From Gautieria morchelliformis (taxonomy: Eukaryota; Basidiomycota; Agaricomycetes; Gomphales; Gomphaceae), in contig WHVA01000055.1 in the NCBI GenBank assembly GCA_015179125.1, positions 248,001-312,000 of the forward strand: a stretch of 64,000 nt of DNA. The letters run 5' to 3'. The number at the start of each line of letters is the position of its first letter. Position 1 is the first letter of the stretch. Positions 5,156-52,786 of the stretch are shown here, piece after piece. Position numbers and translations under genes: made by a program. A model generated the notes under the pieces. The model was not told where the DNA came from, did not search any database, and worked only from the letters and a program-made list of their open reading frames with translations.

Positions 5156-5164
5156 TCCTCAATA

Positions 5165-5192
5165 CTAGGTGGATACCCGCGCGAAGCGCGGG
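5165..5192 (-). other. Helitron 3' terminus: hairpin plus CTAG
   Basis: On the plus strand, cccgcgc (5176-5182) and gcgcggg (5186-5192) form a perfect 7-bp stem with a three-base loop. The palindromic CTAG at 5165-5168 is the transposon end. Rolling-circle transposition uses this hairpin as its terminator. Confidence 0.9.
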
Positions 5193-5200
5193 GGTGCAAG

Positions 5201-5296
5201 TCAAACGCCTCGGTAAGGTCAAACGCATCAGTAAGTCTAATGCATCAGTCAGTCTAACGCATCGGTAAGTCTAACATATCAGTAAGTTCAAGTGCA
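5201..5296 (-). repeat. 17-bp subterminal tandem repeat of the Helitron
   Basis: Five to six imperfect copies of gtctaacgcatcagtaa lie between the helicase stop codon and the terminal hairpin, with unit boundaries near 5201, 5218, 5235, 5252, 5269 and 5286. Such a subterminal array could be a binding site for the transposase, but this is inference. Confidence 0.8.
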
Positions 5297-5343
5297 TTGG
5301 GGAAAATCAAAGTAATCAATTTGCATCAAGTAGATATCAGAAA

Positions 5344-6718: not shown

Positions 6719-7117
6719 TGTAAGGGCAACCCTGGCTAGTCGTGGAGATCACACTACCACACAACTGACAAGGGGAAATCCAAAGAGAAAAGTCTAAGGA
6801 CCCCCAATGTCAGCGAGCCCGTATTATACTACGCTGCGCAGCCAGGGACAACGCTTGGCACCCGCCATCAACCCTGCATCCCCCTGACCCTTGATCGACC
6901 CTTGATGCCACCTATTATGCGAGTCGCTTGATTTCCGACACTGTTCCGGGGCGGAAGTCGGAAATTGGAGTGGAACTGGCAAGGCGAACGGAACTGGTGG
7001 AAGTTCTCCCAGAAGCGGAATCGTTCCCGAAAGCGGATGCGGAGATGGAATCGGAACCGGAAGCGGAGTCGGAAATGGAGTCGGAACTGGAAATGGAAAA
7101 CAGGGTGTCCCCTGACA
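6719..7117 (-). repeat. 3' LTR of gypsy element G
   Basis: This LTR is 399 bp long and identical to 28169-28567. A purine run (plus-strand image cccccctct at 7121-7130) lies just inside and is the polypurine tract. The U3 side carries a six-base periodic TTCCGN-type run. The pol frame reads into this LTR and stops at 6915. Confidence 0.95.
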
Positions 7118-8932
7118 TCACCCCCCCTCTAGCGTGCTGCGTCCTCGAAGCGCGGGACACAAGGGATTGAAATGCCAGCGAGCGGATTCGGCGAGGGGCA
7201 CCTGGATGTGTCCTGTAGAACTCCCGGAGTTTGTCAGGAGCGGAAACATCTTGCTCCGGGACCCACGAATTCTCCTCGTACCCATACCCTTCCCATTTCA
7301 CGAGGAATTGGAGTCGTCCTCGCACAAACCGGCTGTCCAGGATCCGTTCTACCACGTAGTGCTCTTCCCCATCTACAATTTCTGGCGGAGGTGGCGGATG
7401 AGCCTTCCGACGTGGAATTGGGTCCTCAAGCATAGGGAGTAACTTCACCACGTTGAAGACGGGGTGGAGGCGGGACATGGACATCGGAAGTCGGAGGCGG
7501 TATGCATTCCGTCCAACCCTCCGCATCACTGTGAAGGGCCCAAGGTAGCGGTGGGCAAGCTTCTGCGAAGGGCGTGTGGTGCGGATGTCACTTGCATCTA
7601 GGTACACCTTGTCTCCAACTTGGTACTCCGGGGCAGGAACCCGGCGTCGGTTGTAGTACCTTGCCATGTCATCCTTGGCCTTCGCAAGGGCCGACTTGGC
7701 TTCCGAAAGGGTGGAGTCCATGCGGTCTCGGAACTCATTGACCGTCTCGAGTCGGGAGTCAGCCTGGCGTGGTTCGAAGCCCATCCGCGGGTGTCGTCCG
7801 GAGTCAAGCATGAAGGGAGTCTGTTGCGTGGCGGAATGGACATGGTTGTTGTATTGGAATTCCGCCAGCGGAAGTAACTCATCCCAGTCATCCTGCCTCT
7901 CATTGACAAAGAGGCGGAGATATCGCTCCAACTCCTGATTGACCCGTTCCGTCTGTCCGTCACCCTGCGGATGGTACGCTGTGGTGGTAGCCAGCTTTAT
8001 GCCGAGCAGGCGGTAGAGCTCCCGAGTCAGTTCCGCGACAAACTGCGGACCTCGGTCGGAAACGACTTGCTTCGGGAGCCCATGCAACTTCCAGACATGT
8101 GCAAGGAACAGGCGGGCCGCTCCGAGGGCTGTGATCGTCGTGTGCGTCGGAATGAAGTGGGACACCTTGCTCACCGAATCCACGACGTTCATGATCGCGT
8201 CGTAGCCATGAGACTCTGGGAGTTCAACGATGAAGTCGACACTGATGGTGTCCCAGCGGGATTCGGGAATCGGGAGCGGAACAAGTTCTCTGACGGGCGG
8301 ACGTCGTTGCGCTTTGGTTCGGAGACAAAGGTCACACGTCTTCACGTACTCTCCGATGTAGCGGGACATCTGAGGCCACCAGTAATTCCGAGCCACTAAC
8401 TCCAGCGTCTTCCACCTGCCAGCATGCCCAGCGACACGTGTGTCATGGTGCTGGGACACGATGCGACGGCGGAGGTCCGCCCCACCCGGAACATAGACCT
8501 TGCCTCTGAAGTGGAGCAGTCCATCACGTTCCGACCATTCCGCTGCCCGTACAGACCGTGAGTGCCCCTTCCGGAGTTCCTCCACTGCCTTCACCACCGA
8601 CTCCTCCTTCTCTCCATTCCGGTACTGCCTCCGGATATCCCGGAGCATTTCCGCTTCCGCCCCAACTGCAGTTACTCCTTCTAGGGCACGGATTGCAAAG
8701 AGACTTGGGCGGAGCAGTGTCATATCTGCGTTGTCTCCACTTCCGCTTCCGTGATCCGCGCGGCGGGATAGGGCATCGGGCTTGCCCATGGTGCGGCCGG
8801 GGCGGTGGTGGAGCATGAAGTCAAACCGGGACAGGTGTAGGGACCACCGTGCTTGTCGTCGGTTCAGCTTCTTAGCCATGCGGAAATACTCGAGGTTCTT
8901 GTGGTCTGTCCAGATCTCAAAAGGGCATAGAG
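6915..8932 (-). CDS. pol of gypsy element G, RNase H end, integrase and chromodomain
   Basis: The part after the copia insertion begins with IWTDHKNLEYF of RNase H. It continues with the integrase zinc-binding region (H..H...C..C: GHAGRW ... TCDLCLR), the catalytic core (DFIVELP, SDRGPQF, HPQGDGQTERVNQ) and a C-terminal chromodomain (HYVVERILDSRFV ... FLVKWEGYG ... NSWVP). The chromodomain places it among chromoviruses, which target chromatin. A serine-rich tail is read through into the 3' LTR. Confidence 0.92.
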
Positions 8933-9420
8933 TGTTAGCAACTCGGGGCTATGGCAGGGAAGGTTCGGTAGAGTTCTTAGAAAGCTAAAATCAAATACAC
9001 TCTCTCAGTGAATTTATTGTCACTGATGTATTAATACAATACCTAAAATCAAATACACTACATGATTTTTAGTCAACATGCTATGTAAATATGAAAGATA
9101 CTACTCGCCTCTCTCAGTGAATTTATTGTCACTGAGAGAGGAGTGTAATCCTGTCTCAGAAGGCATATACTTGCACCCGGCCCTTTAGCGCCCAAGGGCT
9201 CGCGCGTCGAAGTCATTTCAAACTCCGCTGGGTGCAGCCGCCTGTGAAAATAGAAATAACAGAATGGAATGGAGAGATAAGGAGTGACTAGAAAATTTCG
9301 AAAATAAGCAGAGAAATGGATGCATGGTACAAGAACAGTATGAGAAAATATTGAAACACCACACAATAAATTGAATATATTATGCTTGATTTTGGTGCAG
9401 GAGCATAAATGCACCCAACA
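8933..9420 (-). repeat. 3' LTR of copia A
   Basis: It is 488 bp and ends at 9420, next to the purine tract (plus-strand image cgccccctcaagc). It carries the hairpin cctctctcagtga ... tcactgagagagg also found in the B subfamily, and shares the ccggccctttagcgccc block with it. Confidence 0.95.
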
Positions 9421-9433
9421 CGCCCCCTCAAGC

Positions 9434-11300
9434 TTAATATATTCTGATTTTCTCGTTGAGGATTCTCACTCTAGGACTAGGAAGTCCTTTAGTGAGAAGA
9501 TCGGCTAGCATGTGTTCCGTTGGTAGGTACACAAGCTTAATTTCTTCATCTTCGACTATATCTCGGATGAAATATAATCTAATGTCGAAATGTTTGGTCC
9601 TCGTGTGTTGTTGAGTGCCATAAACGATGGCAATGGCTGATTGATTGTCTGAATAAAGTTTGATGGGACAATTCAGCGGTTGGAATACTTCAGAAATAAA
9701 GTGGCGCATCCATAAGGCTTCTTTACTCGCATGAGTCAGGGCAACGAATTCGGCTTCAGTTGATGATAGGGCTACTATGGATTGTTTTTGACAACTCCAT
9801 GATACTGTCCCTCCATCAATCTGAAAAATATAAGCCGAGTATGAGTGCCTGTGCTCTTGAGAAGCCCAATCCGCATCTGAATACCCAATGAGGCCGTCTC
9901 GATTTTTCCCAAGTGTCAATTTGTAGTCTATCGTGCCTTTTAGATATTTAAAGACACGTTTGACTGCATGCCAATGTGTTGGACCTGGGTTTTCGAGGAA
10001 TTGAGAAAGTAATGACACTGCGAACGCAATGTCTGGTCGAGTGGCTACTGCTGCCCACATCAATGATCCTATCGCTTGTCTGTATGGAATTCTTGACATC
10101 TTCTGTTTGTCTTCATCTGTAGAAGGGCATTGGTCTCTGGATAATTTAACGGCTGGGTCGAGAGGCGTGGAAAATGTTTTAGCATCATCCAGATTGAATT
10201 TTTTGATGATTTTTTGGATGTATGCAGCTTGTGATATTGCAATCGATTTGTTATTCCAATCTCTTTCGATTTTGAGGTTCAAAAGCCAATGAATCTCGCC
10301 TAGATTTTTCATACTGAAGATCTGGGCAAGATCATGCTTTACCCCATCGAGGATTGGTTGACTCTCAGCTGTGATAGTGAGGTTGTCTACCGCCGTTGCA
10401 ATAATCGCATGCCCTCTCGGTCCACGTCTGCAAAATACAGCTCCATCCGAAGCTGATTTAGTGAATCCTAACTTGAGAAATTCACCACTCAGACGTTTGT
10501 ACCATTCCCTTCCAGATTGTTTGAGGCCGTAAAGTGCTTTCTTCAGCAGGAGGACATCATCTTTGTCTCCGGTCTCATATCCATACGGCTGTCTCATGTA
10601 AATAGGTTCTGGCAGTGTAGCATTCAAATACGCACTGTCCACATCCATTTGGTGAATAGGCCAGTTGTTCCTGGCAGCAATGGCACATATAATCCGTAAG
10701 GAAGTCATCCGAGCAACAGGTGCATAGGTTTCATTGTAGTCGACTCCAAAACTTTGTGTAAAGCCTTGGGCGACCATTCTCGATCTAGGTGTGATGGGTT
10801 CACCTTCTGGATTGCGTTTCCAGAGGAATACCCATCTATTTCCGACAATATTTGCCCCAGGAGGTGGTTTAACCACTTCCCATACACCTTTGTCGAGTAG
10901 CACCTTATACTCTTTATCCATCGATGCTTTCCACATAGGATCATTTAAGGCTTCATCTGCATTGCTAGGCTCGGTCTGATTCAAATCCGGCAGCACATTA
11001 TCTTTGTTTTGATCGGAGGTCGAAAGTGTACTGATGGCAAGGTTATAATCACTGATGCCGTCAGTGACAGAGGATAAATCTTGTTCGAATAATTTGTCTT
11101 GATGGTCCTCAATGTCCTCGTAAGCTAGTGTAGTGATATCTGCACCAGCATGTCTCTTGGTTTGAGATCTTGTTACGGGACCACTTGGGGCCGGCTGCAC
11201 CTGCTGCTGACGGATTCTCTCGCTTCTCCTTGTTGGAGCAGCTTCTTTAGGTCTGGCATCAACAGTCTGACTGGGTTGCAGCTCTTTCAGACGTTCCTCT
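9434..11300 (-). pseudogene. copia A reverse transcriptase and RNase H part
   Basis: The segment runs from the B insertion to the stop next to the 3' LTR. It begins in the linker (RRSERIRQQQVQ), followed by RT blocks SRMVAQGFTQSFGVDY, HQMDVDSAYLNA and KKALYGLKQSGREWYKRL, and RNase H blocks (GYSDADWASQ, SSTEAEFVAL, SDNQSAIAI, HFDIRLYFIRD). The final ADLLTKGLPSP is typical of copia pol ends. Confidence 0.88.
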
Positions 11301-11798
11301 TGTTGGGTGCATTTATGCTCCTGCACCAAAATCAAGCATAATATATCCAATTTGTTGTGTGGCCTTCCAATTTCTTCTCACATTGTTCTTGTATTATGCA
11401 TCCATTTCTCTGGTTATTTTCGAAATTTTCCACTCATTCCTTATCTCTCTATTTCATCTTGTTATTCCTACTTTCACAAGCGGCTGCACCCAGCGGAGTC
11501 TGAAATGACTTCGACGCGCGAGCTCTTGGGCGCTAAAGGGCCGGGTAGTAGTACATGCGCAGTGGAACACATTTCCCCCTCTCTCAGTGACCACTAAATT
11601 CACTGAGAGAGGCAAGTAAATTAGTCTAGTAGTCTTTGCATTTATTGACCTAGAAATCCTCTGTAGTGAATTGATTTCTAGGTAGTGTATAATATATTTA
11701 TAGTGACCACTAAATTCACTGAGAGAGTGAATTGATTTCTAGTCTATTCCTTTGAATAACAAGTCCATACCTACTGCCTATAATTCCTGTCCTCTACA
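11301..11798 (+). repeat. 5' LTR of copia B
   Basis: The LTR is 498 bp. The 3' third holds a perfect 13-bp hairpin (11578-11590 with 11600-11612) and a second 10-bp hairpin built on cctagaaatc / gatttctagg. The block ccactaaattcactgagaga occurs twice (11591 and 11707). Confidence 0.95.
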
Positions 11799-11812
11799 GG
11801 GTTATGGGCCCC
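11799..11812 (+). promoter_or_regulatory. primer-binding site overlapping the gag-pol start codon
   Basis: Right after the LTR the sequence is GGGTTATGGGCCCC. It resembles the complement of the anticodon arm of initiator methionine tRNA, the kind of half-tRNA primer known for Drosophila copia. The ATG inside it (11804-11806), complementary to the CAU anticodon, is also the first codon of the gag-pol frame. Confidence 0.65.
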
Positions 11813-14800
11813 GGAGACACTTCTGAGAAGCTGTTGGGTGTTGAGAAGCTTGCTACTGATGGAAGTAATTGGCCATTGTGGCGAGCCACTCTCATCAGCT
11901 ATTTTGAGTCCAAAAATCTGCTCAAGCATGTAGAAGGGAGAGTCACTCGACCTCCTGATCCTCCAGTCATGCCCCCAGGCCATATTCTAACAGAAGCTGA
12001 GGAAACTCAGATGGATAAGGCCGAGGAGAAGCTGGAGAGATACCTTGCTAGAGAAGGACAAGCCAAGACCCAAATCATCGTCTCAGTGTCAGAGTCATTA
12101 GCCCTGATGCTACAGAAGCAGAAGACAGCAAAAGAGACTTGGGATGCACTGGTCAATGAAATGACCAAAAAGCCCAAGATGGTCCTCACCAGCCTGCAGA
12201 GACAACTCCGCAGTATGAGATGTCCTGAGGATGGAGACTTGAGAGATCACTTGGACAAGGCCCAAGACCTATATGCTCGTCTTAATGAGATGGGAGCTAG
12301 AGTTTCTGAAGAAGAATTCATGGACATAATCCTTGCGTCACTTCCACCATCCTATGAGGCAGTCATGAATGCCCTTACAACTTCGCTTGAAGAATGCGGG
12401 ATGCCATTGGTCCCTGATAATATTATTAGGGTACTAAAGGCTCAGTATGACAGGAAGAAAACACTCCCGCAAGAAGAGCAGGTGTTTATTGGTTCATCTA
12501 CTAAGAAGGACCAGAAGGGGCAGAAGGCGCATGTATGCACCAACTGCAAAAAGCCTGGACATTCCATCGAAAATTGCTGGGCTAAAGGAGGTGGTAAAGA
12601 AGGTCAAGGACCACGTCAGAAGAAGAAAGCCAAAGGCAAGAAGAAGAAGAAGGGTAAAGCAAAAGCGAATGTTGCCGAAGAAGAGTCTACTTCTGAGGAA
12701 AGTGGTGATGGGCATCTTGCCTTCACCAATTTTGACGAGTGCTCTAATTTCAATTTGAGCACATCCTCAGGAGTTATAGTCATACTCGACACCGGAACGA
12801 CATCGCATATGACTCCTCACAAAAATTTATTGAGGAACTACTGTCAATTCTCACAGCCGAGGACTATCCGAGCAGCCAACAAAGGTACCTTTGATGCCTT
12901 CGGCTCAGGACTGCTCGTATTATCCAATAAGGTTGGAGATAGAACAGTAGAAGTCACGTTGCAGGATACATACTATGCACCCAAAATTGCTGCTACCCTC
13001 GTCTCGATCGGTCGGTGCGATGATGCTGGCTACGACATTCGACTCGGTGGCCAGAAATGCACAATATCTAATGCTGCTGGAAAAGTATTGATGCAAGCAC
13101 CGAAAGTCAATGGCTTATATCGACTAGACCTCCAGTCACCAAGTGCTCAAGCCCATATGTGTTTATCTGCCATGGAAATTCATCAAAAGATGGGGCACAT
13201 CTCGCAGAAGTCCCTACAACATCTATTAAATCATGGCATGATATTGGGCATTGAACTGAGCTCCACAGGCGATAGAATTGTCTGTGATGCGTGTATTCAG
13301 GCCAAGATTGCGCGCAAACCTCTTCCTCGAGAACCCAGAGACCGAACATCAAAATTCGGTGACAGAATTTATTCTGATGTCTGGGGACCTGCAAGACACC
13401 TCACGATCGATAAGAAGTCATATTATGTCTCCTTTATCGATGACTACTCAAGAGAATCGGTGATCTATCTCATGGCGAACAAATCAGAAGCATTCTCAAA
13501 GTACAAGCTCTACGAGGCTTTAATGCTTCGACAGAGAAATGTGCACATCAAGGCACTTGTTTCTGATCGAGGGGGCGAGTATACGAGCTCTGAATTCGAA
13601 CAGCATCTAGCCAAACAAGGCACGAAGCATCAGTTGACGGTACACGACACACCAGAGTCCAATGGTGTTGCGGAGCGCCTGAACCGAACCCTCACTGAGA
13701 GAACTCGTGCCATGCTGCTAGAATCAGGCCTTCCTAAGATATTATGGGGCTATGCGATACAGCATGCCAATTATCTTAGGAACAGGACGCATACAAGAGC
13801 TCTACCAGATAAAACGCCCTACGAGATGATTCACCATGAAAAACCGAATCTCAAAGACATTCACGCGTGGGGAACTGAAATTTACGTTAAAATCACTCAG
13901 GGAGATAAATTGGAAGCTCGTGCCAAGAGAGCTCGGTGGATAGGAATTTCTGCGCAGAGCCATGGTCATTATGTTTATTGGCCTGACTCGCACAAAGTTT
14001 CTGTCGAGCGGAACATTGTCTTTGATTCAGAAATGAAGAAGGGAAAGGTCCCAATCATTTCTATTGAGGAATCCAAGCTACCTACGTCTAAAGAAGAGAA
14101 GAAGGCCATTCCGGCATCAGTGCCTGTGCCCGGTCGCTTAGTCAGCGAAGAGGCAAAGATCGAAGAAATTGATGAAAGTGCACCGGAAGAATATCTTGAA
14201 AAGCTGCAACCTATTCAGGGAGTTGATGACAGACCTAGAGAAGCTGAACCGATAAGGAGAAGCGAAAGGATCCGTCAACAACAAGTGCAGTCGGCCCCAT
14301 CAGGTCCCGTGACAAGATCTCAAACTCAGAGACAAACTGGCGCACATATGACTATGCTAGCTTACGAGGACGTTGAGGACCATGAAGAAGTTTTATTCGA
14401 CCAAGAATTATCCTCCGAGATTGATGGCATCAGTAGCTATGAGTGTGCCATCAGTGCGTTTCTAACCGACGGTCAAAACAATAACAAGGCGCCGGATTTG
14501 AGTCAAATTGAACCTAGCAATGCAGACGAAGCTCTGAATAATCCTATGTGGAAGAAATCAATGGACAAAGAGTATGAGGCCCTAATCGACAAGGGAGTGT
14601 GGGAAAGAACCAAACCACCTCCTGGAGCCAACATTGTCGGCAACAAATGGGTCTACCTTTGGAAGCGTAATCCAGAAGGGAAACCAATAGTACCTAAATC
14701 GAGAATGGTCGCCCAAGGCTTCACGCAGAAGTTTGGAATCGACTATGATGAGACATACTCACCTGTTGCTCGGTTATCCTCCCTACGGATCATATGCGCC

Positions 14801-16048
14801 ATTGCTGCTAGGAATGACTGGCCTATTCATCAAATGGACGTGGACTATGCATACCTCAATGCTAAGTTGCCCGAACCTATTTACATGAAGCAGCCGTATG
14901 GATATGAGTCAGGAGACAAAGGCGAAGTGCTACTTTTGAAGAAAGCACTCTACGGCCTCAAGCAATCTGGAAGAGAATGGTACAAACGTCTAAGTGGTGA
15001 ATTCCACAAGTTAGGATTCACTACGTCAGCCACAGACGGGGCTGTGTTTTATAGACGTGGCGGAAAGGGGCATGTGATCATTGCAACAGCTGTGGACGAC
15101 CTTACCATCACAGCTGAGAATCAGTCAGTCCTGGACGAAGTCAAACGAGATCTTGCTCAGGTCTTCAGTATGAAAGATCTAGGCGAGATTCATTGGCTAT
15201 TGAATCTCAAAATCGAAAGAGACTGGCAGAAGAAGACCATTGCAATTTCACAACCTGCATACATCGAGAAGATCATCAAAAAATTTAATCTCGAAGATGC
15301 AAAGACTTATGCTACGCCTCTTGATCCAGCCGTAAAATTATCTAAAGACCAATGTCCTTCTACAGAGAGAGGCAAGAAAGCCATGTCGAAATTTCCATAC
15401 AGGCAAGCTATAGGATCACTGATGTGGGCGGCTGTAGCCACTCGACCTGACATTGCATTTGCGGTGTCATTACTCTCGCAATTCCTTGAAAATCCAGGTG
15501 GCACACACTGGAATGCAGTCAAACGTGTCTTCAAATATTTGAAAGGCACAAAGCATTACAAGCTCACACTTGGAAGAAATCAAGACGGCTTGATGGGGTA
15601 TTCAGATGCGGATTGGGGTTCACAGAGTCATAGGCGTTCGTATTCGGCATACTTATTTCAGATTGATGGAGGCACTGTTTCATGGAGTTGCCAGAAACAG
15701 TCGATAGTAGCCCTCTCATCAACTGAAGCCGAATTCGTCGCCCTGACCCATGCGGGCAAAGAGGCTCTTTGGATGCGCCATTTTATTTCTGAAATATTCC
15801 AACCACTGAACAGACCCATCCAAGTTTATTCAGACAATCAATCAGCCATTGCCATCACGTATGGCACCCAACAACACACGAGAACCAAGCATTTCGACAT
15901 CCGATTATATTTCCTTCGAGATATAATCAAAAATCAACAAGCCAAGCTCGTTTATTTGCCAACCGAACAAATGTTGGCAGATATCCTCACTAAAGGACTT
16001 CCTAGTCCTAGAGTGAAGATTCTCAACGAGCAAATCGGAATATATTAA
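11804..16048 (+). CDS. copia B gag-pol polyprotein, 1,414 codons, open
   Basis: This is a single frame without a gag-pol frameshift. Approximate residues: gag domain 10-220; CCHC knuckle CTNCKKPGHSIENC near 245; Lys-rich stretch 265-285; aspartic protease ILDTGTTSHMTPH near 325; integrase zinc region (HQKMGH ... CDACIQAK) 458-500; integrase core with SDVWGP near 525, SDRGGEYTS near 585 and SNGVAERLNRT near 622; RT with SRMVAQGFTQ near 965, HQMDVDYAYLNA near 1010 and AVDDLT near 1093; RNase H with GYSDADWGSQ near 1263, SSTEAEFVAL and SDNQSAIAI. It makes the particle protein, cuts itself and copies and integrates the element. All catalytic motifs expected in copia are present. Confidence 0.95.
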   Translation: MGPGDTSEKLLGVEKLATDGSNWPLWRATLISYFESKNLLKHVEGRVTRPPDPPVMPPGHILTEAEETQMDKAEEKLERYLAREGQAKTQIIVSVSESLALMLQKQKTAKETWDALVNEMTKKPKMVLTSLQRQLRSMRCPEDGDLRDHLDKAQDLYARLNEMGARVSEEEFMDIILASLPPSYEAVMNALTTSLEECGMPLVPDNIIRVLKAQYDRKKTLPQEEQVFIGSSTKKDQKGQKAHVCTNCKKPGHSIENCWAKGGGKEGQGPRQKKKAKGKKKKKGKAKANVAEEESTSEESGDGHLAFTNFDECSNFNLSTSSGVIVILDTGTTSHMTPHKNLLRNYCQFSQPRTIRAANKGTFDAFGSGLLVLSNKVGDRTVEVTLQDTYYAPKIAATLVSIGRCDDAGYDIRLGGQKCTISNAAGKVLMQAPKVNGLYRLDLQSPSAQAHMCLSAMEIHQKMGHISQKSLQHLLNHGMILGIELSSTGDRIVCDACIQAKIARKPLPREPRDRTSKFGDRIYSDVWGPARHLTIDKKSYYVSFIDDYSRESVIYLMANKSEAFSKYKLYEALMLRQRNVHIKALVSDRGGEYTSSEFEQHLAKQGTKHQLTVHDTPESNGVAERLNRTLTERTRAMLLESGLPKILWGYAIQHANYLRNRTHTRALPDKTPYEMIHHEKPNLKDIHAWGTEIYVKITQGDKLEARAKRARWIGISAQSHGHYVYWPDSHKVSVERNIVFDSEMKKGKVPIISIEESKLPTSKEEKKAIPASVPVPGRLVSEEAKIEEIDESAPEEYLEKLQPIQGVDDRPREAEPIRRSERIRQQQVQSAPSGPVTRSQTQRQTGAHMTMLAYEDVEDHEEVLFDQELSSEIDGISSYECAISAFLTDGQNNNKAPDLSQIEPSNADEALNNPMWKKSMDKEYEALIDKGVWERTKPPPGANIVGNKWVYLWKRNPEGKPIVPKSRMVAQGFTQKFGIDYDETYSPVARLSSLRIICAIAARNDWPIHQMDVDYAYLNAKLPEPIYMKQPYGYESGDKGEVLLLKKALYGLKQSGREWYKRLSGEFHKLGFTTSATDGAVFYRRGGKGHVIIATAVDDLTITAENQSVLDEVKRDLAQVFSMKDLGEIHWLLNLKIERDWQKKTIAISQPAYIEKIIKKFNLEDAKTYATPLDPAVKLSKDQCPSTERGKKAMSKFPYRQAIGSLMWAAVATRPDIAFAVSLLSQFLENPGGTHWNAVKRVFKYLKGTKHYKLTLGRNQDGLMGYSDADWGSQSHRRSYSAYLFQIDGGTVSWSCQKQSIVALSSTEAEFVALTHAGKEALWMRHFISEIFQPLNRPIQVYSDNQSAIAITYGTQQHTRTKHFDIRLYFLRDIIKNQQAKLVYLPTEQMLADILTKGLPSPRVKILNEQIGIY

Positions 16049-16061
16049 GCTTGAGGGGGCG

Positions 16062-16557
16062 TGTTGGGTGCATTTATGCTCCTGCACCAAAATCAAGCAT
16101 AATATATCCAATTTGGTGTGGCCTTCCAATTTCTTCTCACATTGTTCTTGTATTATGCATCCATTTCTCTGGTTATTTTCGAAATTTTCCACTCATTCCT
16201 TATCTCTCTATTTCATCTTGTTATTCCTACTTTCACAAGCGGCTGCACCCAGCGGAGTCTGAAATGACTTCGACGCGCGAGCTCTTGGGCGCTAAAGGGC
16301 CGGGTAGTAGTACATGCGCAGTGGAACACATTTCCCCCTCTCTCAGTGACCACTAAATTCACTGAGAGAGGCAAGTAAATTAGTCTAGTAGTCTTTGCAT
16401 TTATTGACCTAGAAATCCTCTGTAGTGAATTGATTTCTAGGTAGTGTATAATATATTTATAGTGACCACTAAATTCACTGAGAGAGTGAATTGATTTCTA
16501 GTCTATTCCTTTGAATAACAAGTCCATACCTACTGCCTATAATTCCTGTCCTCTACA
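16062..16557 (+). repeat. 3' LTR of copia B
   Basis: It is 496 bp, matching the 5' LTR except for a short length difference near position 40. The purine tract ends directly before it. Confidence 0.95.
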
Positions 16558-16562
16558 CCTCT

Positions 16563-18184: not shown

Positions 18185-18682
18185 TGTAGAGGACAGGAAT
18201 TATAGGCAGTAGGTATGGACTTGTTATTCAAAGGAATAGACTAGAAATCAATTCACTCTCTCAGTGAATTTAGTGGTCACTATAAATATATTATACACTA
18301 CCTAGAAATCAATTCACTACAGAGGATTTCTAGGTCAATAAATGCAAAGACTACTAGACTAATTTACTTGCCTCTCTCAGTGAATTTAGTGGTCACTGAG
18401 AGAGGGGGAAATGTGTTCCACTGCGCATGTACTACTACCCGGCCCTTTAGCGCCCAAGAGCTCGCGCGTCAAAGTCATTTCAGACTCCGCTGGGTGCAGC
18501 CGCTTGTGAAAGTAGGAATAACAAGATGAAATAGAGAGATAAGGAATGAGTGGAAAATTTCGAAAATAACCAGAGAAATGGATGCATAATACAAGAACAA
18601 TGTGAGAAGAAATTGGAAGGCCACACAACAAATTGGATATATTATGCTTGATTTTGGTGCAGGAGCATAAATGCACCCAACA
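18185..18682 (-). repeat. 3' LTR of copia B-prime
   Basis: It is the 498-bp LTR copy next to the purine tract at 18683-18694. It carries the same two hairpins as the B LTR. Confidence 0.95.
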
Positions 18683-18694
18683 CGCCCCTCAAGC

Positions 18695-22939: not shown

Positions 22940-22944
22940 AACCC

Positions 22945-23442
22945 TGTAGAGGACAGGAATTATAGGCAGTAGGTATGGACTTGTTATTCAAAGGAATAGA
23001 CTAGAAATCAATTCACTCTCTCAGTGAATTTAGTGGTCACTATAAATATATTATACACTACCTAGAAATCAATTCACTACAGAGGATTTCTAGGTCAATA
23101 AATGCAAAGACTACTAGACTAATTTACTTGCCTCTCTCAGTGAATTTAGTGGTCACTGAGAGAGGGGGAAATGTGTTCCACTGCGCATGTACTACTACCC
23201 GGCCCTTTAGCGCCCAAGAGCTCGCGCGTCGAAGTCATTTCAGACTCCGCTGGGTGCAGCCGCTTGTGAAAGTAGGAATAACAAGATGAAATAGAGAGAT
23301 AAGGAATGAGTGGAAAATTTCGAAAATAACCAGAGAAATGGATGCATAATACAAGAACAATGTGAGAAGAAATTGGAAGGCCACACAACAAATTGGATAT
23401 ATTATGCTTGATTTTGGTGCAGGAGCATAAATGCACCCAACA
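22945..23442 (-). repeat. 5' LTR of copia B-prime
   Basis: It is the 498-bp LTR copy. The primer-binding site (plus-strand image ggggcccataaccc) lies at 22931-22944 and again contains the start codon of gag-pol at 22939. Confidence 0.95.
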
Positions 23443-23447
23443 CAGGC

Positions 23448-24208
23448 TTGTGGCAATTAGTGCATGTAGACACCTTCGGGTCTTTCCGACCCTTCTGCCC
23501 TTTCGTAGATGAACCAATAAATGCCTGCTCTTCTTGTGAAATATTGAGAGTCTTTCTCCTGTCGTATTGAGCCTTTAGTACTCTGATAATATCATCAGGC
23601 ACTAAGGGCATTCCACATTCTTCGAGCGACGTGGTAAGGGCATTCATAACTGCCTCATAGGAGGGTGGCAGTGATGCAAGAATAATGTCGGTGAACTCTC
23701 CTTCAGAAATTCTGGCTCCCATCTCATTGAGACGAGCATAGAGGTCTTGGGCCTTGTCCAAGTGATCTCTCAAGTCTCCATCCTCAGGACACCTCATACT
23801 GCGAAGCTGCCTCTGTAGGTTGGTGAGGACCATCTTGGGCTTTTTGGTCATCTCATTGACCAAGGCATCCCAGACTTCTTTTGCTGTATGTCTCTTCTGT
23901 AGCATCAGGGCTAATGACTCTGACACTGAGACGATTATTTGGGTTTTTGCCTGTCCTTCTCTGGCAAGATACTTCTCCAGCTTCTCCTCAGCCTTCTCTA
24001 TCTGAGTTTCCTCAGCTTCTGTGAGAATATGGCCTGGGGGCATGACTGGAGGATCAGGAGGTCGAATGGCTCTCCCTTCTATATGCCTGAGTAGATTTTT
24101 GGACTCAAAATAACTTGTGAGAGTAGCTCGCCACAGAGGCCAATTACTTCCATCTGTTGCAAGCTTCTCCACACCCAAAAGCTTCTGCGAAGTGTCTGCG
24201 GGGCCCAT
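23448..24208 (-). pseudogene. copia A gag, N-terminal part
   Basis: The frame starts MGPADTSQKLLGVEKLATDG, within the primer-binding site, and continues with the copia gag domain (FESKNLLRHIEGR, LRDHLDKAQDLYARLNE). It reaches the first half of the zinc knuckle, CTNCHKP, where B-prime is inserted. It is about 85-90% similar to the B protein by eye. Confidence 0.88.
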
Positions 24209-24214
24209 AACCCT

Positions 24215-24702
24215 TGTTAGCAACTCGGGGCTATGGCAGGGAAGGTTCGGTAGAGTTATTAGAAAGCTAGAATCAAATACACTCTCTCAGTGAATTTATT
24301 GTCACTGATGTATTAATACAATACCTAAAATCAAATACACTACATGATTTTTAGTCAACATGCTATGTAAATATGAAAGATACTACTCGCCTCTCTCAGT
24401 GAATTTATTGTCACTGAGAGAGGAGTGTAATCCTGTCTCAGAAGGCATATACTTGCACCCGGCCCTTTAGCGCCCAAGGGCTCGCGCGTCGAAGTCATTT
24501 CAAACTCCGCTGGGTGCAGCCGCCTGTGAAAATAGAAATAACAGAATGGAATGGAGAGATAAGGAGTGACTAGAAAATTTCGAAAATAACCAGAGAAATG
24601 GATGCATGGTACAAGAACAGTATGAGAAAATATTGAAACACCACACAATAAATTGAATATATTATGCTTGATTTTGGTGCAGGAGCATAAATGCACCCAA
24701 CA
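24215..24702 (-). repeat. 5' LTR of copia A
   Basis: This is the second copy of the A LTR, about 99.4% identical to 8933-9420 by eye. Its inner edge abuts the primer-binding segment AGGGTTATGGGCCC, which overlaps the gag start codon at 24208. Confidence 0.95.
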
Positions 24703-24707
24703 TAGAG

Positions 24708-26808
24708 CACCCTCGAGGAAGTGTCGCCACTCCTCCAGCGCTCGGATGATTGCCAGCATCTCCTTGTCATGGATCTCATAGTTCCGCTCGACCGGACTAA
24801 GGCTCTTAGAGAAGAAGGCAATCGGATGCCACCCCCCACCATCTTCCGATGACTGCTGTGACAAGACCGCTCCGGTAGCTGCGTCGGAAGAATCCGCCTC
24901 GACTCGATAAGGGCGAGAGTCGTCGGGAAAGATCAGGACCGGGGCGGAAGTGATCAGCTCCTTGAGTTTGTCAAAGGAAGTCTGTTCCGGCTCTCCCCAC
25001 CGCCATCCAACCTCCTTCTTGGTGAGGTCGAAGAGGGCACGGGCGTGGCAGGAGAAGTCCTTGATGAACCGCCGGTAGAAATTGACAAACCCAATGAAGG
25101 ACTGGACCTCCTTCTTGTTTCGCGGCACGGGCCAATCCGATACACCGGAAACTTTGACTGGGTCCATTTCCACCTTTCCTTCCGACACAATCACCCCAAG
25201 ATACTCTATCCGCGTCCGCTCAAATTCGCACTTTTCCGGCTTGAGACACAGGTTGTACTCCCGGAGCCGTTCCAGCACTCTCCGCACGACTTCCCGATGT
25301 TCGGACATTGTTTTCGTGAAAATGAGGATGTCATCGAGGTAGACGCAGACAACCCCTTCTGCTATCATGTCACGGAAAATGTCATTCATCATCGTCTGGA
25401 ATGTGGCGGGACTGTTGGTGAGGCCAAAGAACATGACCTGTGGCTCAAAGAGTCCTCGATTGGTGCGGAATGCGGCCTTCCACTCGTCTCCCTCCCGGAT
25501 CCGGACATTGTTGAAGCCCCAGCGGACATCCAGCTTAGTGAAGTACCTCGCCCCGCGGAGTTGTGTGATCAGTTCGGAAATGAGTGGAATGGGGTACCGG
25601 TTCTTGATCGTGATCGCATTCAAGGCCCGGTAGTCCTGCACAAGTCTGAGCGAGCCATCCTTCTTCTTGATGAAGAACACCGGAGATGCCATGGGTGACT
25701 TGGAGGGGCGGATCCTCCCTGTACGGAGGTTTTCCGCAAGGAACGCATCGAGCTCTACCTGCTCCTTGGGTGACAGCGGGTAGACCTTGCAGTTGGTGGG
25801 CTTTGACCCAGGCTCCAACTCGATGGCGTGGTCCCACAGCTTCCGTGGAGGCAGGGTATCAAACGACTCCTTGGAAAAGACGTCCTCGAACTCTCGCAGG
25901 TACTCCGGAATTTCCGCCTCTACTCTATCATGCCTCTTGGAGGCTTCAGCAAGGCGTTGCGAAATATTTCCGGTGGCGCGGATGTGTTCCGCTTCCGGTG
26001 GAAGGTTTACGTACAGCAAGCGCTCCCCTTCCGCCAGAATGTCTTCCGGGCCGAGTCGGATGACGTCGGAATCGGAATCGGAATCGGAAGTGGGATCCGG
26101 TTCAAATTCCGCTTCCGAGTCTTCTTCTGCAAGCAGTGGATGGGGGCCAGAACGACATGTCTGTATGAGCCGTTCAGTCTTTCGCTGCTCCTGGCGCTCC
26201 TTCCGCAGTTCCGACCTGCACATGTGACACTTGGCTGGACATCGACTCATCAGTACCTTCCGAGTCTGCCAATTGATCTCCGGGTTGTGCTCCTGAAGCC
26301 AGGTAAACCCGAGGATGATGTCCTGCTTCCCCAGGCTGGTGACTGCAAAGGAAGTGCATTCTGAGTGTCCATCGTAGCGGAGAATTGTGTCTACTATCTC
26401 CGTGATGGACCCTGCCTCATTGGGGCTTCCATCCACATTGAACACCGGGATTGCACGTTGCAACTTCCGCGTGGTCAGTCGGTTCCGTTCCACATAGTCC
26501 CGGTCCATAAACTGACCAGTGGCCCCGCAATCGACAAGGGCGGGTCCGGATTTGACTTCCGCCGTATCTGTCGTCTGGATCTCCACCTTAATGACTAGTG
26601 ACTTGGGGCCAGGGGTGGCAGCAACAACATAGCGCTTCGGAAGGCGTCTCTCCCAAGGGCGGATGCGGGATGGATGGGGTGTCAGATTTGGTTTTTGTGT
26701 GACTTTATCCGGTGGGTCTGTACGAAGTGAGGGGAGTGGGGGCTTTTCATTCTCTACTTCAAGACAGGCAAACCGGTTATGTACAGGCAGCAGGGGCACA
26801 CATCTCAC
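24708..26808 (-). CDS. pol of gypsy element G, protease-RT-RNase H part
   Basis: The frame opens at the gag stop and runs to the copia insertion. In order it shows an aspartic protease motif (LVDCGATGQFMD), the RT core (FTKLDVRWGFNNVRI, VYLDDILIF), the connection segment (FIGFVNFYRRFIKDF) and the start of RNase H (EADSSDAATGAVLSQQS). These make the protein cut itself, copy its RNA and remove the template. The remainder lies at 6915-8932, beyond copia A. Confidence 0.9.
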
Positions 26809-28109
26809 CCGCTGCGTGTCACAAAATCCGATGCATCTTCCGCTTCCGGTAGACCATGTTCCGCATTTTCGGAAAGCTCTTCCGCAGTGGGCACTCCATT
26901 TATGTCTGCAAGCGCGAGGAACTCTGGAAGGATCTCGAGTTTCTCCTCTGTGGTCATAAGCCGGATATCAAAGGCTTGGGGGCACTCGCGAGCGTAGTGG
27001 CCTGGTTGTCGGCAGCGGAAGCAGGTGATAGTTCCGTGGCCTTTTCCGCGCATGCGGTCAACATCCATCGGGGCAGGGCCACTCTTCGAGGGAGGAGGGC
27101 TATGGTTCCTAATAGGAGCAGGCGGAGCAAGCATCGGAAATAATTTCCGTGTGGGAATGAATGCGCTTCCGGGTTTTGGCACAGGTTGAGTAGGACGAGC
27201 GGAACTGCGTGTCGTGTTCCGACTCGTCTCCACGAAGGCCTCATTTGCCTCCCTGTTCCGAGAAACCTTCTGCGCAGCTTGGTACCACCCTTCCGGGTCA
27301 TCAAAATCCGGAGCTCCATCCCCAAGCAGCGCAACTTGGTTCTGGAGCGTCGGATCAAGTCCTCGTCGGAATTTGATGACAATCGTCTTGTCGTCGTCAT
27401 ATTCCGCAAGGTCGATGAGCTCCTGGAAGCGATCGATGTAGTCATCGACCGGATCTTTGGCCTGGTACCAGCTCGTCCCCTCGAGCTTTGTAAGGGCTGT
27501 GAGCTGCTCGTTTTTCGGGCAGAACTGGTCGGAAAATGTTTTCTCGAACGCGTCCCAGTCCCGGAAGTAGTTCCCCTTGCCCTTTGCTTCATGTCGGATC
27601 ACCTTGTTTGCAAAACGGGCTGCGCGGTCCGATTTGAAAAAGGACAACGTCCAGTGAATCCGAGCCTGGTCGTTCGGAAAGAGGTCTCCGACGATTGCGA
27701 AGTAGATGCTGCATGTGTTGAAGAATGCGCGTCCCTTCTCCCGATCTCCGTCAAAGTCCGCCGGAGTTGCGGGTTTGACCTTTGCTAACTTCGCGGACAT
27801 CCTCTTTTCCGCTAGTTCCGCTTTTCCGAAATCCGGATCATCCAGCATTTCATTTCCACCACCTTGTGGAATATCTAACTTAGCCAAAATCGCTTGTAAG
27901 GCTGTTTCAATCGCGTCGGTCTTCATCTGGTTCCGCGTCAATTCCTCCTCCATATTCCGAAGACGATCGTCCGGATCCATGTTGGAAGGAGAAATATGGG
28001 ACGGGATTTCCGGGGTTGGGAGCTCGACGTAAGAAGAGGGGCTGTCGTACGCTGTATGTTGCGGAAGAGGTTGCGATCTCCGAGTCGCTGTCTCCGATTC
28101 CGAATGCAC
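26805..28109 (-). CDS. gag of gypsy element G
   Basis: The open frame is about 434 codons and is the capsid-like protein of the element. The central part (retrotransposon gag domain) includes YFAIVGDLFPNDQARIHWTL and DWDAFEKTFSDQF. Near the C-terminus is a CCHC zinc knuckle, CFRCRQPGHYAREC, for nucleic-acid binding. A more likely start than the frame opening is MDPDDRLRNMEEE, about 40 residues in. Pol follows directly in another frame. Confidence 0.85.
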   Translation of the reverse strand: MHSESETATRRSQPLPQHTAYDSPSSYVELPTPEIPSHISPSNMDPDDRLRNMEEELTRNQMKTDAIETALQAILAKLDIPQGGGNEMLDDPDFGKAELAEKRMSAKLAKVKPATPADFDGDREKGRAFFNTCSIYFAIVGDLFPNDQARIHWTLSFFKSDRAARFANKVIRHEAKGKGNYFRDWDAFEKTFSDQFCPKNEQLTALTKLEGTSWYQAKDPVDDYIDRFQELIDLAEYDDDKTIVIKFRRGLDPTLQNQVALLGDGAPDFDDPEGWYQAAQKVSRNREANEAFVETSRNTTRSSARPTQPVPKPGSAFIPTRKLFPMLAPPAPIRNHSPPPSKSGPAPMDVDRMRGKGHGTITCFRCRQPGHYARECPQAFDIRLMTTEEKLEILPEFLALADINGVPTAEELSENAEHGLPEAEDASDFVTRSG

Positions 28110-28168
28110 CTATGGCGAATGCAACGCACAGTACGACCACCGGTCCTCTAGGGGAGAGACTTTTCTGC

Positions 28169-28567
28169 TGTAAGGGCAACCCTGGCTAGTCGTGGAGATC
28201 ACACTACCACACAACTGACAAGGGGAAATCCAAAGAGAAAAGTCTAAGGACCCCCAATGTCAGCGAGCCCGTATTATACTACGCTGCGCAGCCAGGGACA
28301 ACGCTTGGCACCCGCCATCAACCCTGCATCCCCCTGACCCTTGATCGACCCTTGATGCCACCTATTATGCGAGTCGCTTGATTTCCGACACTGTTCCGGG
28401 GCGGAAGTCGGAAATTGGAGTGGAACTGGCAAGGCGAACGGAACTGGTGGAAGTTCTCCCAGAAGCGGAATCGTTCCCGAAAGCGGATGCGGAGATGGAA
28501 TCGGAACCGGAAGCGGAGTCGGAAATGGAGTCGGAACTGGAAATGGAAAACAGGGTGTCCCCTGACA
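28169..28567 (-). repeat. 5' LTR of gypsy element G
   Basis: This LTR is 399 bp long and identical to 6719-7117. Directly inside it the minus strand reads GCAGAAAAGTCTCTCC, the presumed primer-binding region. It contains AGAAAAGTCT, which is complementary to AGACTTTTCT within the LTR itself and suggests self-priming rather than a tRNA primer. Confidence 0.95.
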
Positions 28568-28572
28568 GTCAT

Positions 28573-31500
28573 AGTCCCTCTGCTCAGCTATGAACCTGTT
28601 TCCAATGAGGGCCTCCCACTCGCCTGCCACCCGAGGCATATCATCAAAGCTGCTCAAGGACATTCCACCCTGCTGGAGGATTTTTTCCAAGAGAAAGAGG
28701 CCAAAATCATAGACCTGATCATCCCGTGGCTCCTGGATATTGTGCCTGATTTGGAGCCGATGTCTGAGATCATCACATATGTGCTCCTTGAAGGCGTCCC
28801 ATAGTCTGTCAGGTTGTGAGGGAATGCAATGACCAAGGATGGTGGCAAAGAGATGTCTGAGCCGAGCGCCTGTTTTCATGCCACTGGCTTCCTGGAGACA
28901 CAACCTCCACTCCTGATCATCCTCCAGAAGTCCCCTGGCAAGACAGGCCTCCTTGTAAGTAGCACATTGTATGCCATCCACCGTCCTAAGCTCCTCAAAG
29001 GATCTGGCGCCCTTGACCACCGTGAGGAGAGTGCGCAAATAAAATCTCTCTCCTGATTTTGGGCTTGCAAAGTGAAGGCGTCCAATGCTATACCCCCTTT
29101 GACGTGGTGTCCATACCCTTTCCTCTTTTTTCCAGGTAAAATACTCAGGAAAATCCACATAGAGCACATCGCGTGCATGAGGGTAGGCAGCATTGGCCTC
29201 AAAGTAAGCCATGAGCGCTGTCTTTGACCCCTCAACCCTGTTCATGATGGTGAGCGGATCAGCATCAGGATTGAAAACGACTGATTGCTGGTCTTTTTCA
29301 TGGACTGGCAGTGCCATGACTGCAGGCACCTGGGTGTGGATTTCCCGCTCCAGCAACCTCCAACAGGCCTCATGAGCACTGACATAGCGAGCGTCCAGGT
29401 ACTTCTTTATCTCATCATGGTCGACACCAAACTCCATCGTGGTCCGATCGTGGCCCTTGTATAGATACTTGTGGATATACTTGACGCACCTCACACTGAA
29501 GGTGAATTCAAGGTTGATGTGACACCGGAGTTTGAGCAAGAGCAGAGGAGAGTATGGCACAACCCATCTGTTGTCCAGCATGTCACCTCTGACATTGTGC
29601 AGCCTTCCATCATTGCGACGACGATATTTTGGATATCCATCTACATTCACAACGGTCTCCTCACAGAATGGCTTTGGGAAGTTTTTCTTGCACTTGCCAT
29701 TTTCCATGCAGGGTGCGTTTGGATTCATTTGTCCACAGGGACCATGTGTCATCAGCTCACAGACCAACTGGTAGAGGACAGGATGTGTCTCTGGATCAGG
29801 GAACTCTGCTGAAATCATAGAATCCACCTCATGTGGATGTTTGACCTTGGACTCCCTATCGAACCAGGTAAGCAGGTGCATGTGTGGGAGCCCCCTCTTC
29901 TGGAATTCAATAGTGTGAACGCGAGCGACGGTTTCTCCAAAGATCTTGTCCTTGACGATCAAGTCAATGAGGTATTTCTTTTTGAGGTGAAACACCCGCG
30001 ACACCAGGTCAGGTCTGTCCTGAGCAGTTTGTCCAGGGAGCAACTCGGCCACTATCTCATCCCACTTTGGATTGGCAGTCATGGTAATAAATAAATCAGG
30101 GGGACCCTTCTTTGTTGTAATGGCCAGGGAGTTCTGGCAGTTTTGATTCATGTCCCGTGTACTTCCTTGAAATGTCGCAGGCAGAATGACTTTTATGCCC
30201 AAGCTGTTTGCATCTCCCATGTCATTGTCCAAGCCTCCATATGAATCTACCATCTGGTTATACTGCTCAGCACGCAGAGTGTGTTGATTGGCCCTGATCC
30301 ACCTCAGTCTGCTTTGCTCTGCAGCAGCCCATGAGTCTACAATGTACTGCTGGAACAATTTGCCACCACGCAGGAGTGTTGTAGGTTCTCTCGCTCTCTG
30401 GAACAGACGATACGCATGGTACTGTATTTGGGTGACCTGTGTCCGTCTGTTTGGATTGGGATTGGCCTGCCGAGCACGCTCTGGCTCATGATAAGGAATA
30501 TCTGGTTCCCATCCCAACTCTCCCTTGGGAAAGAGCAAGACATAGTGCAGAGAGGCATAGTTTGCATTGGTATCCAATACCCTTCTGAAACGTCCACCTC
30601 TGAGCTGGACAATAATATCCCTAGGTCCAGGGTCGATGCCATCTCCAGGAAGAACGACTGCAATCTCATCTGCAGTTGGGACATTATATCTCCTAGGATC
30701 CCTGTGTGCCCTGTATGTGAGCCTTGCCTGGATGTCACCATTCTGTTCTTGAGCTCTGAGCCTCTCAGCTGCTTGTTTATATGTGCGCACATGAGGATTG
30801 CATAGCAGGAGCATTTCCTGCAAGTCTCCCATGATAGTTGGAGACAGACGCTCGTTACGATTTTTTCTCTTTGCCAAAGCCAGTGCAGGATCATATATGT
30901 AAAGCTGGGCATACTTTGGATCGTCTTCATTGTCAGGGAGGAGAGAGCCATGGAGATGATACAGTTCACCCTGTAGCTTGAGCACATATGGACCACGACC
31001 CTCCCGAAGCAAATCTTGGTCAAAGTTGGCCCCCACAGAAGTGAATGCAAATGCAGCATTATACTGCCTGATATTCTGGCGAAATCCTTTTGCCTCAGGG
31101 TCCTGGCCTTCTAAGAGCTGTTTCAATGGCTGAGGGGGCTCTGGCAGGTCTTCCAGCTGCACCTTTCCTTCCATACAGCAATCACCAAACCTGGGTCGCA
31201 CATTTGAGGATTTCTGCAGGCGTTCTGCCATCCAGTGTAATGCTCCACAGTCAGGGCAGGGAATAACCATGGGACCCAGATCATGACGCAGCACATCTGC
31301 CTCGATTATTCTAGAGCGACCGAGTGGAATAAAAGGAGGAGGTCGCTGAGGACGCTGCCGAGGCATAGGGAGTGGCTGAGGAGGCTGAGGAGGTGCAGGG
31401 AGTGGCTGAGGAGGCTGTGGAGGTGCAGGGAGAGGCTGAGGAGGTGCAGGGAACATCTGGGGAGGCTGAGGAGGTGCAGGGAGTGGCTGAGGAGGCTGAG

Positions 31501-32044
31501 GAGGTGCAGGGAGTCGCTGAAGAGGCCGCAAAAGCGCAGGGAGTAGCGGAGGCATTGGTCTTATTGCATTGGCCTGAGCACGCAATGCTGCCACTCCTGC
31601 AGAACCTACTACAGGAGGAGGCGCTGGTTGTACAGATGCAGGCCTGTGCCTTCCCAAAGGCCGCAATGCAGCTGCCTGAGCACGCAAGTCTGCAATGGCT
31701 GCTGAACCTACTATAGGAGCTGGCTGTACAGGGTCTGGCCTATTTCTTCTCAGGGGCTGTAATGGTGGGATAACTGCTAACTGAGCATGAAGGGCTGCCA
31801 CCTGCTCTCCAGGACTGAGATTAGGAGGACGTGATGAGGGTGCCAGCATGGGCAGACGTGAAGAGGGTGCAAGCATAGGAGGACGTGATGGCCCGGCCAC
31901 AGGTTGTTGAAAAGGATCAGCGACATTGCTTCTAGGAGGAGGGTGAGGGATGGCAAAAGGCTGTGGGGGAGGGGGTGGCTGGTCCTGAGCTCTGACAGCA
32001 GCAGCAGCAAGCGCACGTGCTCTCCGATCAGTGGGCGATGTCAT
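28573..32044 (-). pseudogene. Helitron Rep (HUH endonuclease) N-terminal half of the RepHel protein
   Basis: From the start at 32044 the protein has an Ala/Pro/Gln-rich N-terminus of about 230 residues with repeated QPLPAPPQPP units, then a cysteine pair region (CPDCGALHW ... CC). The Helitron_like_N domain follows (YIVDSWAAAEQSRLRWIRANQ near 560; FITMTANPKWDEIV near 650). The HUH motif is GLPHMHLLTW near 720. The Rep tyrosine motif VKYIHKYLYKGHDR lies near 855 and holds the catalytic tyrosines. This enzyme nicks and joins the DNA strand in rolling-circle transposition. The frame is open up to the gypsy insertion at 28567; the protein originally continued into the helicase at 5344-6718. Confidence 0.92.
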
Positions 32045-33110
32045 ATGACCCTCCTGCTCCTCCCTTGCCCTTTCACGCTCCTGCTGACGATTTCTCTCTG
32101 GAGTAGATGGATACCTGAGAAATGCAGGTATAAGCTTAGAGGAACAATCAAGCTACCAGAATTCAACTTACATTTGCAAGCAGATGCTGTTGTTGTTAAT
32201 TTATCTTGGGCAAAGTCAGGGGAATTTATTAATTTCTAATTAAATAAATGTCAGACAGCTCACACCAGACCACCGAGAAATACATACATACCCAGGAAGG
32301 GACAGGTAATTGTTTGTTAAGCAAAGTCAAGGGAATTTATTAATTTCTATTTAAAATAAAATAAATAAATGTCAGATGGCTCACACCAGACCACAGAGAA
32401 ATATATACATACCAAGGAAGGGACAGGGAAATTGATTGATGAAAATATCCAAGTCTTCTTCGGCTATGCAACTGGAATAATTCCAGTAAAAGGTCCTGGT
32501 CCTGGTCCTGGTCCTGGGAGATGTCTTCTTCAGCCACCAGTAGTGCAAGTCAACACTAAGAGAACTGCAATGCAATTGTAGCTCCCTCTAAGGCAGCCTG
32601 GGATGACTACCTGGCTCCTTAGCAGAGAAAAAGCTGCCCCACTGAAGAGGTCAACCCCAATAGTTCAGAGCAGAGATCTCCCTGGGAAGAGATCTTTTGT
32701 AGTCTACACTATATAGGCTATCTATTGTTTCACTCTCACACAATTTTATTCTATCTAGTAGGCAGAGAGGAGAGGAGGGTGGTGGAGTGCGCAGATGCGG
32801 CTGCGCAGCGTTCTGCCAGCGCAGCGCTGCTTTGAGCGCCTGAGCCGGCAGACAAACATAAACCGCAGCCGCGAGCGCGCTCCAGAACGCTGCGCAGCCG
32901 CATTGAGCGCTGGAGCCAGAAGACTGGCGCAAACCGGCAGCCCGGCATGATCCGGTTTGGGCCAGCTGCGCCACTCGCGTCCTTGGCTCACGGCTGCGCC
33001 GCTCGCGTCCGATTGGCCAGCTGACTAAGGCTGACATAAAACCTGACATAAGCTCGACGCCCACAACCCACCGAGGCGCTTTCATATAGTGTAATATTGC
33101 ATATATCTGA
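32045..33110 (-). other. Helitron 5' leader with an internal duplication
   Basis: No gene is seen between the Rep start and the inferred 5' end. A segment of about 105 bp is present twice in tandem (32212-32314 and 32325-32434; shared core ggaatttattaatttcta and ctcacaccagacca). A (ggtcct)4-like microsatellite lies near 32493. A GC-rich stretch (32790-33000) with repeated gctgcgcag and gagcgc motifs follows. The promoter of the RepHel gene is probably here. Confidence 0.6.
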
Positions 33111-34079: not shown

Positions 34080-34185
34080 CCTCGGCTTTGGTACTCGCTT
34101 GGGAACCCTTGGGTTGTCTCGGCTTTCCTTGGTTTCCCTTCATACTTGTCCATCACCCCTGATTCCCCTTCTTAGTTAGGAGGAT
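34080..34185 (+). repeat. dispersed repeat shared with 63275-63395
   Basis: Both sites share the pattern cgcttgggaacccttgggtt ... catcacccctgat ... cttagttag with scattered differences. It probably derives from an unidentified retroelement end. At 63275 it directly follows a copia gag remnant. Confidence 0.6.
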
Positions 34186-39085: not shown

Positions 39086-39117
<32 letters not shown>

Positions 39118-49320: not shown

Positions 49321-49459
49321 CAAGTGTTGTCCCTGCCTGTGGAGTGTAGTATAATATGGGCTTGCTGGCATTGGAGGTCCTTAGACTTTTCTCTTCAGAT
49401 TTCCCCTTGTCAGTTGTGTGGTAGTGTGACCTCCACAGCCAGCTAGGGTTGCCCCTACA

Positions 49460-52773: not shown

Positions 52774-52786
52774 ACCTCAGAGTAAA

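Follow-up and report, generated by a model that had tools for sequence, protein, structure and literature searches.

Can a stack of transposons found at one locus be read as a series of insertions, each into the last, and how far outwards does such a reading hold? The question is raised by a 64,000-nucleotide stretch of the Gautieria morchelliformis genome (contig WHVA01000055.1, positions 248,001 to 312,000), hereafter the window, in which five transposons occupy positions 5165..33094: four long terminal repeat (LTR) elements within one Helitron. A preliminary description, made from the letters alone, had read them as a five-element nest of a Helitron, a gypsy element (G), a copia element (A) and two copies of another copia element (B and B'). 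We found the nest to be as good as certain and ordinary. The only surprise, a modest one, is the outer flank of the Helitron, where two different repeats meet.

Structure of the nest

The 122 Mb genome is assembled in 1113 contigs, and the window lies on one of 342 kb. Table 1 lists the elements, their target duplications and the outer flanks. All four LTR elements start with TG, finish with CA and have exact 5-base duplications on either side, at the positions given in the preliminary description. The lengths of the parts (Helitron 6076, G 6074, A 5245, B 5257, B' 5258 and 20 duplicated bases) add up to 27930, which is the length of 5165..33094. Moreover, comparison of the window with itself recovered the LTR pairs of the four elements and the inverted pair formed by B and B'.

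Table 1. Elements of the nest, target duplications and outer flanks, in window positions.
Feature	Position	Strand	Parts	Remarks
Helitron	5165..33094	-	arms 5165-6718 and 28573-33094	split by G; ends common to other copies
G, Ty3/gypsy chromovirus-type	6719..28567	-	LTRs 6719-7117 and 28169-28567	split by A
A, Ty1/copia	8933..24702	-	LTRs 8933-9420 and 24215-24702	split by B and B'
B, Ty1/copia	11301..16557	+	LTRs 11301-11798 and 16062-16557	one 1430-codon open frame
B', second copy of the B family	18185..23442	-	LTRs 18185-18682 and 22945-23442	inverted relative to B; 1430-codon frame
G duplication GTCAT	6714-6718 and 28568-28572			exact
A duplication TAGAG	8928-8932 and 24703-24707			exact
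B duplication CCTCT	11296-11300 and 16558-16562			exact
B' duplication CAGGC	18180-18184 and 23443-23447			exact
Left flank, part of repeat X	4038..5164			cut exactly at the Helitron 3' end; other half absent here
Right flank, part of repeat Y	33095..34180			cut at the Helitron 5' end; other side absent here

Empty sites and the order of insertion

Reading the order of insertion from nesting is a long-established practice. In the present case, each side of an insertion was compared as a separate piece with uninterrupted copies in the same genome, match tables being confined to the best 40 matches per query. At the G site, a single GTCAT within continuous sequence was found in all seven Helitron copies that reach it (eight loci were taken, of which L006 stops short, and L005 has 2 mismatches in the 12 bases on the left side). 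An empty site with one GTCAT had been proposed in the preliminary description as a confirmation of the order. Similarly, one TAGAG was continuous at the A site in 19 of 19 other G loci cut out, from 39 other places listed. For the two innermost insertions, 10 of the 13 non-window contigs matching pieces on both sides of the B site were fetched, and every one of these A copies was continuous with one CCTCT at the B site and one CAGGC at the B' site (10/10 each, with a mismatch in the comparison for one copy, L092). In all 13 contigs the A pieces flanking the B site were 1620-1625 bases apart, where 1622 would be expected without B.

Since the duplicated letters occur singly at the uninterrupted sites, the layering is established, with the Helitron first, then G, then A, and then B and B'. 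The order given earlier therefore stands on the layering and the empty sites together, and comparison with uninterrupted copies confirmed that each interrupted element resumes at its duplication. The chance of a 5-base match at a fixed place is about 1 in 1,000, and that of four such matches about 1e-12. The empty sites are stronger evidence than these odds, and they rule out chance matches as the source of the duplications. An assembly join inside the LTR layers was also rejected, since linking parts of different insertions would leave a duplication without its partner, and each of the four has one. Likewise, no inversion between B and B' was seen: both duplications are paired, and the intervening piece of A lies in the order and orientation expected from uninterrupted copies. 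As before, either of B and B' could have come first; their LTR pairs differ by one 2-base gap and by one substitution, respectively.

Each element had further been said to lie in the coding region of the last. This was borne out for G by an uninterrupted Helitron copy (L084) with a 942-codon frame spanning the G site, for A by an uninterrupted G copy (L066) with one frame spanning the A site, and for B and B' by the copia domains found to the left and to the right of each site within A. The wording is not strictly correct for whichever of B and B' came later, as both are in A.

The five-element nest is very probably the product of ordinary retrotransposition, with the Helitron present first. 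G would have integrated into the helicase gene of the resident Helitron and A into the pol gene of G, after which B and B' would have entered the coding region of A at two separate sites and in opposite orientation. At each LTR insertion, a 5-base staggered cut of the target would have produced the 5-base duplication, and the integrase of each element would have carried out its integration in the usual manner. One observation speaks against this order: by nesting, G is the oldest of the LTR elements, yet its LTRs show 0 differences in 399 bases, whereas those of the younger A show 3 in 488. The contrast falls short of significance (probability 0.17 if the two are equally old).

Nested insertions have been described in the fungus Pseudocercospora (PMC13041039). 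As in the nested LTR elements of genomes rich in transposable elements, young LTR elements here lie within other elements, and nothing essential differs. The particular features are that the outermost element is a Helitron and that four layers were checked against empty sites of the same genome. The nest preserves successive insertions cleanly and in a form that can be checked, each LTR layer having its empty-site control within the same genome, where very young elements abound.

Classes and ages of the LTR elements

The classes assigned earlier (Helitron, gypsy and copia) were supported by domain scans. G contains gag, protease, reverse transcriptase (RT), RNase H, integrase and chromodomain, with RT preceding integrase. 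This domain order, the chromodomain, the TG..CA LTRs and the 5-bp duplication are those of a Ty3/gypsy chromovirus. In A, scanned in pieces, and in B, scanned as one frame, gag, integrase and RVT_2 were detected. With integrase before RVT_2, TG..CA LTRs and 5-bp duplications, both belong to Ty1/copia, and B' is placed there by its 99.8% identity to B. Between B and B' there are 3 substitutions and 3 gap bases, and the 1430-codon frame is kept in both.

The LTR pairs of the four elements were 99.4 to 100% identical, leaving aside one 2-base gap. Those of G are both 399 bases and those of A both 488; the pair of B (498/496 bases) is separated by that gap alone, and the pair of B' (498/498 bases) has a single difference. 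For the G, A and B queries, the best 40 matches were all of 99-100% identity. First-look candidates, which are not copy counts, numbered 1093 with G as the query, 714 and 717 with A and 1945 with the B LTR; the Helitron ends gave 1195 and 581. The families are common and young, and with such families a five-element stack would be unremarkable.

The Helitron and its ends

The right arm is the 5' part of the Helitron and contains Helitron_like_N (Rep; E 4.4e-57). The left arm is the 3' part, with PIF1 helicase (E 3.1e-23 and 5.8e-29 in two scans), a terminal hairpin and CTAG. A Rep (HUH) protein and a PIF1-like helicase, the defining pair of a Helitron, are therefore present at the level of domains. 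The window copy runs from TTACAC to CTAG; A precedes it and T comes after it.

The preliminary description had placed the nest at 5165-33110. The left end of this span was correct and the right end was 16 bases too far. With positions 32711-33110 as the query (581 candidates), 34 of the best 40 other matches ended at window 33094-33099, 6 stopped earlier and none reached 33110. The 16 bases 33095-33110 are flanking repeat sequence and occur in 11 of 11 other loci of repeat Y. Accordingly, the Helitron 5' end is at 33094 and not at 33110. In L084, moreover, a whole Helitron copy ends at the equivalent of 33094 and the next Helitron follows directly.

At the 3' side, hairpin and CTAG were seen in 14/14 distinct ends, a count that reports presence and not frequency because the motif itself requires both; T directly followed CTAG in all 14. 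TTACAC is the 5' end in all 13 copies compared, that of the window among them, and not the TC of other Helitrons. As the other defining features are present, the element is retained among the Helitrons, its 5' end being a variant. It shares with the CTAG-ended Helitrons that target A-T sites a Rep and PIF1-type helicase, a 3' hairpin with CTAG, insertion between A and T and the lack of a duplication, but differs from them in its 5' TTACAC and in having flanks from two repeats. Insertion between A and T is the target rule given for Helitrons (PMC5876387). One literature search aimed at it found no account of a basidiomycete Helitron with CTAG and a terminal hairpin.

Immediately before the 5' end, the window and 6/12 other copies have A, and the remaining 6/12 have G. 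In five of the copies with G, it belongs to the CTAG of an abutting Helitron; the sixth is L036. Overall, six of the 12 other 5' ends are preceded by a Helitron 3' end, five with intact CTAG and one (L034) cut within the hairpin. Helitrons of this genome often abut head to tail (L006, L034, L041-L044 and L084; possibly L003, L004, L007 and L008). Next to the 3' end in L006 comes a 5' end with the same TTACAC, and next to that in several other loci comes what is, by eye, a related-looking 5' end. The CTAG-T junction is consistent with a newcomer entering between a host A and the first T of a resident Helitron, an event discussed for maize (PMC2267711).

The three-base loop of the 3' hairpin also varies, being GAA in 10/14 distinct ends, TTC in 3/14, with the window among them, and AAA in 1/14. 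The GAA and TTC forms are mutually reverse-complementary (window 5165-5194; L002-L008, L041-L044 and L084) and could reflect a loop that flips over while a single strand is being replicated.

Regarding the state of the window copy, 64 bases of the helicase region are missing at 6328/6329 and present in 9/9 other copies covering the place. The loss is thus a second lesion besides G. Furthermore, 12 substitutions fall within 79 bases (28607-28685) and are shared by none of the 6 copies compared; the arm around them is otherwise about 98-99% identical to L084. This cluster may be a patch converted from a divergent copy. Over its first 188 bases, the right arm is about 92-94% identical to other copies, which had raised the suspicion of a chimeric Helitron switching subfamily at the G site. 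The switch was ruled out, as three of the same places (C334, C269 and C447) are 97% identical over 800 bases. It is also countered by the substitutions in 28607-28685, which set the window apart from all 6 copies.

Flanks of the Helitron

A simple Helitron insertion would take both flanks from one empty site. In the window, the left flank is the low-copy repeat X and the right flank the high-copy repeat Y, two different repeats. For X-left, 14 other matches were found and 11 were cut out as loci; for Y, 11 of the 39 other places listed were read (L022-L032). Three of the 11 X loci (L010, L011 and L019) reach base 5164 and continue into the right half of X. Seven (L012-L018) stop at 5096 and rejoin the right half past a gap, the rejoined stretch being just 38 bases in L017 and L018. 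The last (L020) ends at 5067, with an X-right match listed 25 bases beyond. At the other flank, ten Y loci can be aligned with the eleventh, L023, through the site without interruption, and the left half of these loci does not resemble X. With up to 3 mismatches allowed, the assembly contains the joint of the Helitron with Y a single time. The cut points in X and Y are both A-T dinucleotides, the kind used by Helitrons.

The right half of X and the left half of Y, the latter represented by five loci, were not found in the window or in the 8 kb to its left, barring a 48-50 base X repeat. The earlier account had held that flanks failing to continue the interrupted element would speak against the nest. 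This was found for the outermost layer only, and the inner layers do continue. As a tidy series of insertions with the Helitron included, however, the whole stack is unsupported, since its flanks come from two repeats and a Helitron makes no duplication. The logic by which matching duplications indicate an intact history therefore stops at the Helitron, the one element without a duplication, and such a Helitron can conceal a deletion, an exchange or an assembly join.

Some features of the repeats were also noted. The X end at 4037-4111 recurs inverted about 2.1 kb past the Helitron site in L045 (L045:3-76), so X may be an element of about 3.2 kb with inverted ends. Repeat Y carries a fragment of DUF6533, a basidiomycete family (L023:435-746), and one X locus has a FAD_binding_8 fragment on the right-hand side of the site (L046:2772-3305). 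From these fragments, the repeats may contain captured gene pieces.

Origin of the mismatched flanks

We lean, with some reserve, towards an origin from two like-oriented Helitrons, one within X and the other within Y: recombination between them, or loss of the intervening DNA, would have left a single hybrid Helitron. The two insertions would have become one through deletion between direct copies or through exchange. In a study of the FoHeli Helitrons of Fusarium, ectopic recombination between almost identical Helitrons is stated to be able to delete genomic regions (PMC5148889). These are fungal Helitrons too, and the proposed deletion route is the cause preferred here for the mismatched flanks; FoHeli1 and FoHeli2 are described there as ending in ATTTT, and the family of the window ends in CTAG. 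Two results weigh against a recombined Helitron. No exchange point was seen inside it, and the reciprocal product was found neither among the 19 X-right matches nor in the search for a joint of Y-left with the Helitron. Among those X-right matches, all of which were scored, the 11 that come as near as 43 bases to the site have X-left matches alongside, and the remaining 8 begin at base 142 or beyond. The joint search used one consensus with 3 mismatches and could miss a joint, given that Y copies differ by about 10-17%. The absence of the reciprocal product is what a deletion predicts, and it fits an assembly join as well.

Such a join is a less likely explanation, but a serious one. The LTR layers would be real and the contig misjoined inside a Helitron arm (5165-6713 or 28573-33094), so that X and Y would not be true neighbours. 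The duplications vouch only for 6714-28572, and the Helitron family is abundant, with 1195 and 581 first-look candidates and best other copies 97-99% identical, so that an assembler could go astray there. Against this, the 342 kb contig passes four young LTR elements with all duplications paired, so the stretch was assembled well, and a real exchange between Helitrons yields the same picture. An earlier fusion of X and Y, for example at a shared ATAT, into which the Helitron later inserted by chance exactly at the junction, is improbable: the ATAT-like letters at both cut sites make a microhomology fusion conceivable, but the Helitron would have had to strike an existing junction within a few bases. 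Still fainter is the chance that the outer Helitron marks a breakpoint made by its own rolling-circle machinery, joining the 5' side of the Y target to the 3' side of the X target in one event. The faintest chance is given to 3' transduction, in which a Helitron in X would have run past its terminator, taken X sequence with it and entered Y, with the missing half of Y beyond the carried X. Such read-through has been documented for Helraiser, a Helitron of bats (PMC4778049). In the window, however, a second 3' end of this Helitron family was not found at up to 3 mismatches, the left half of Y is missing there and in the 8 kb to its left, and X stops at 4038, as do 9 of the 11 other X loci, which stop matching at 4037-4039.

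Surrounding sequence

Beyond the nest, a second repeat cluster occupies 38171-49459. It contains non-LTR retrotransposon frames with RT and RNase H (39647-49380), one of them with an endonuclease domain, and pieces related to G at 38171-39062, 45685-46770 and 49317-49459. A kinesin motor gene lies at 50601-52776 on the minus strand in two frames and is the only recognisable host gene among the frames scanned.

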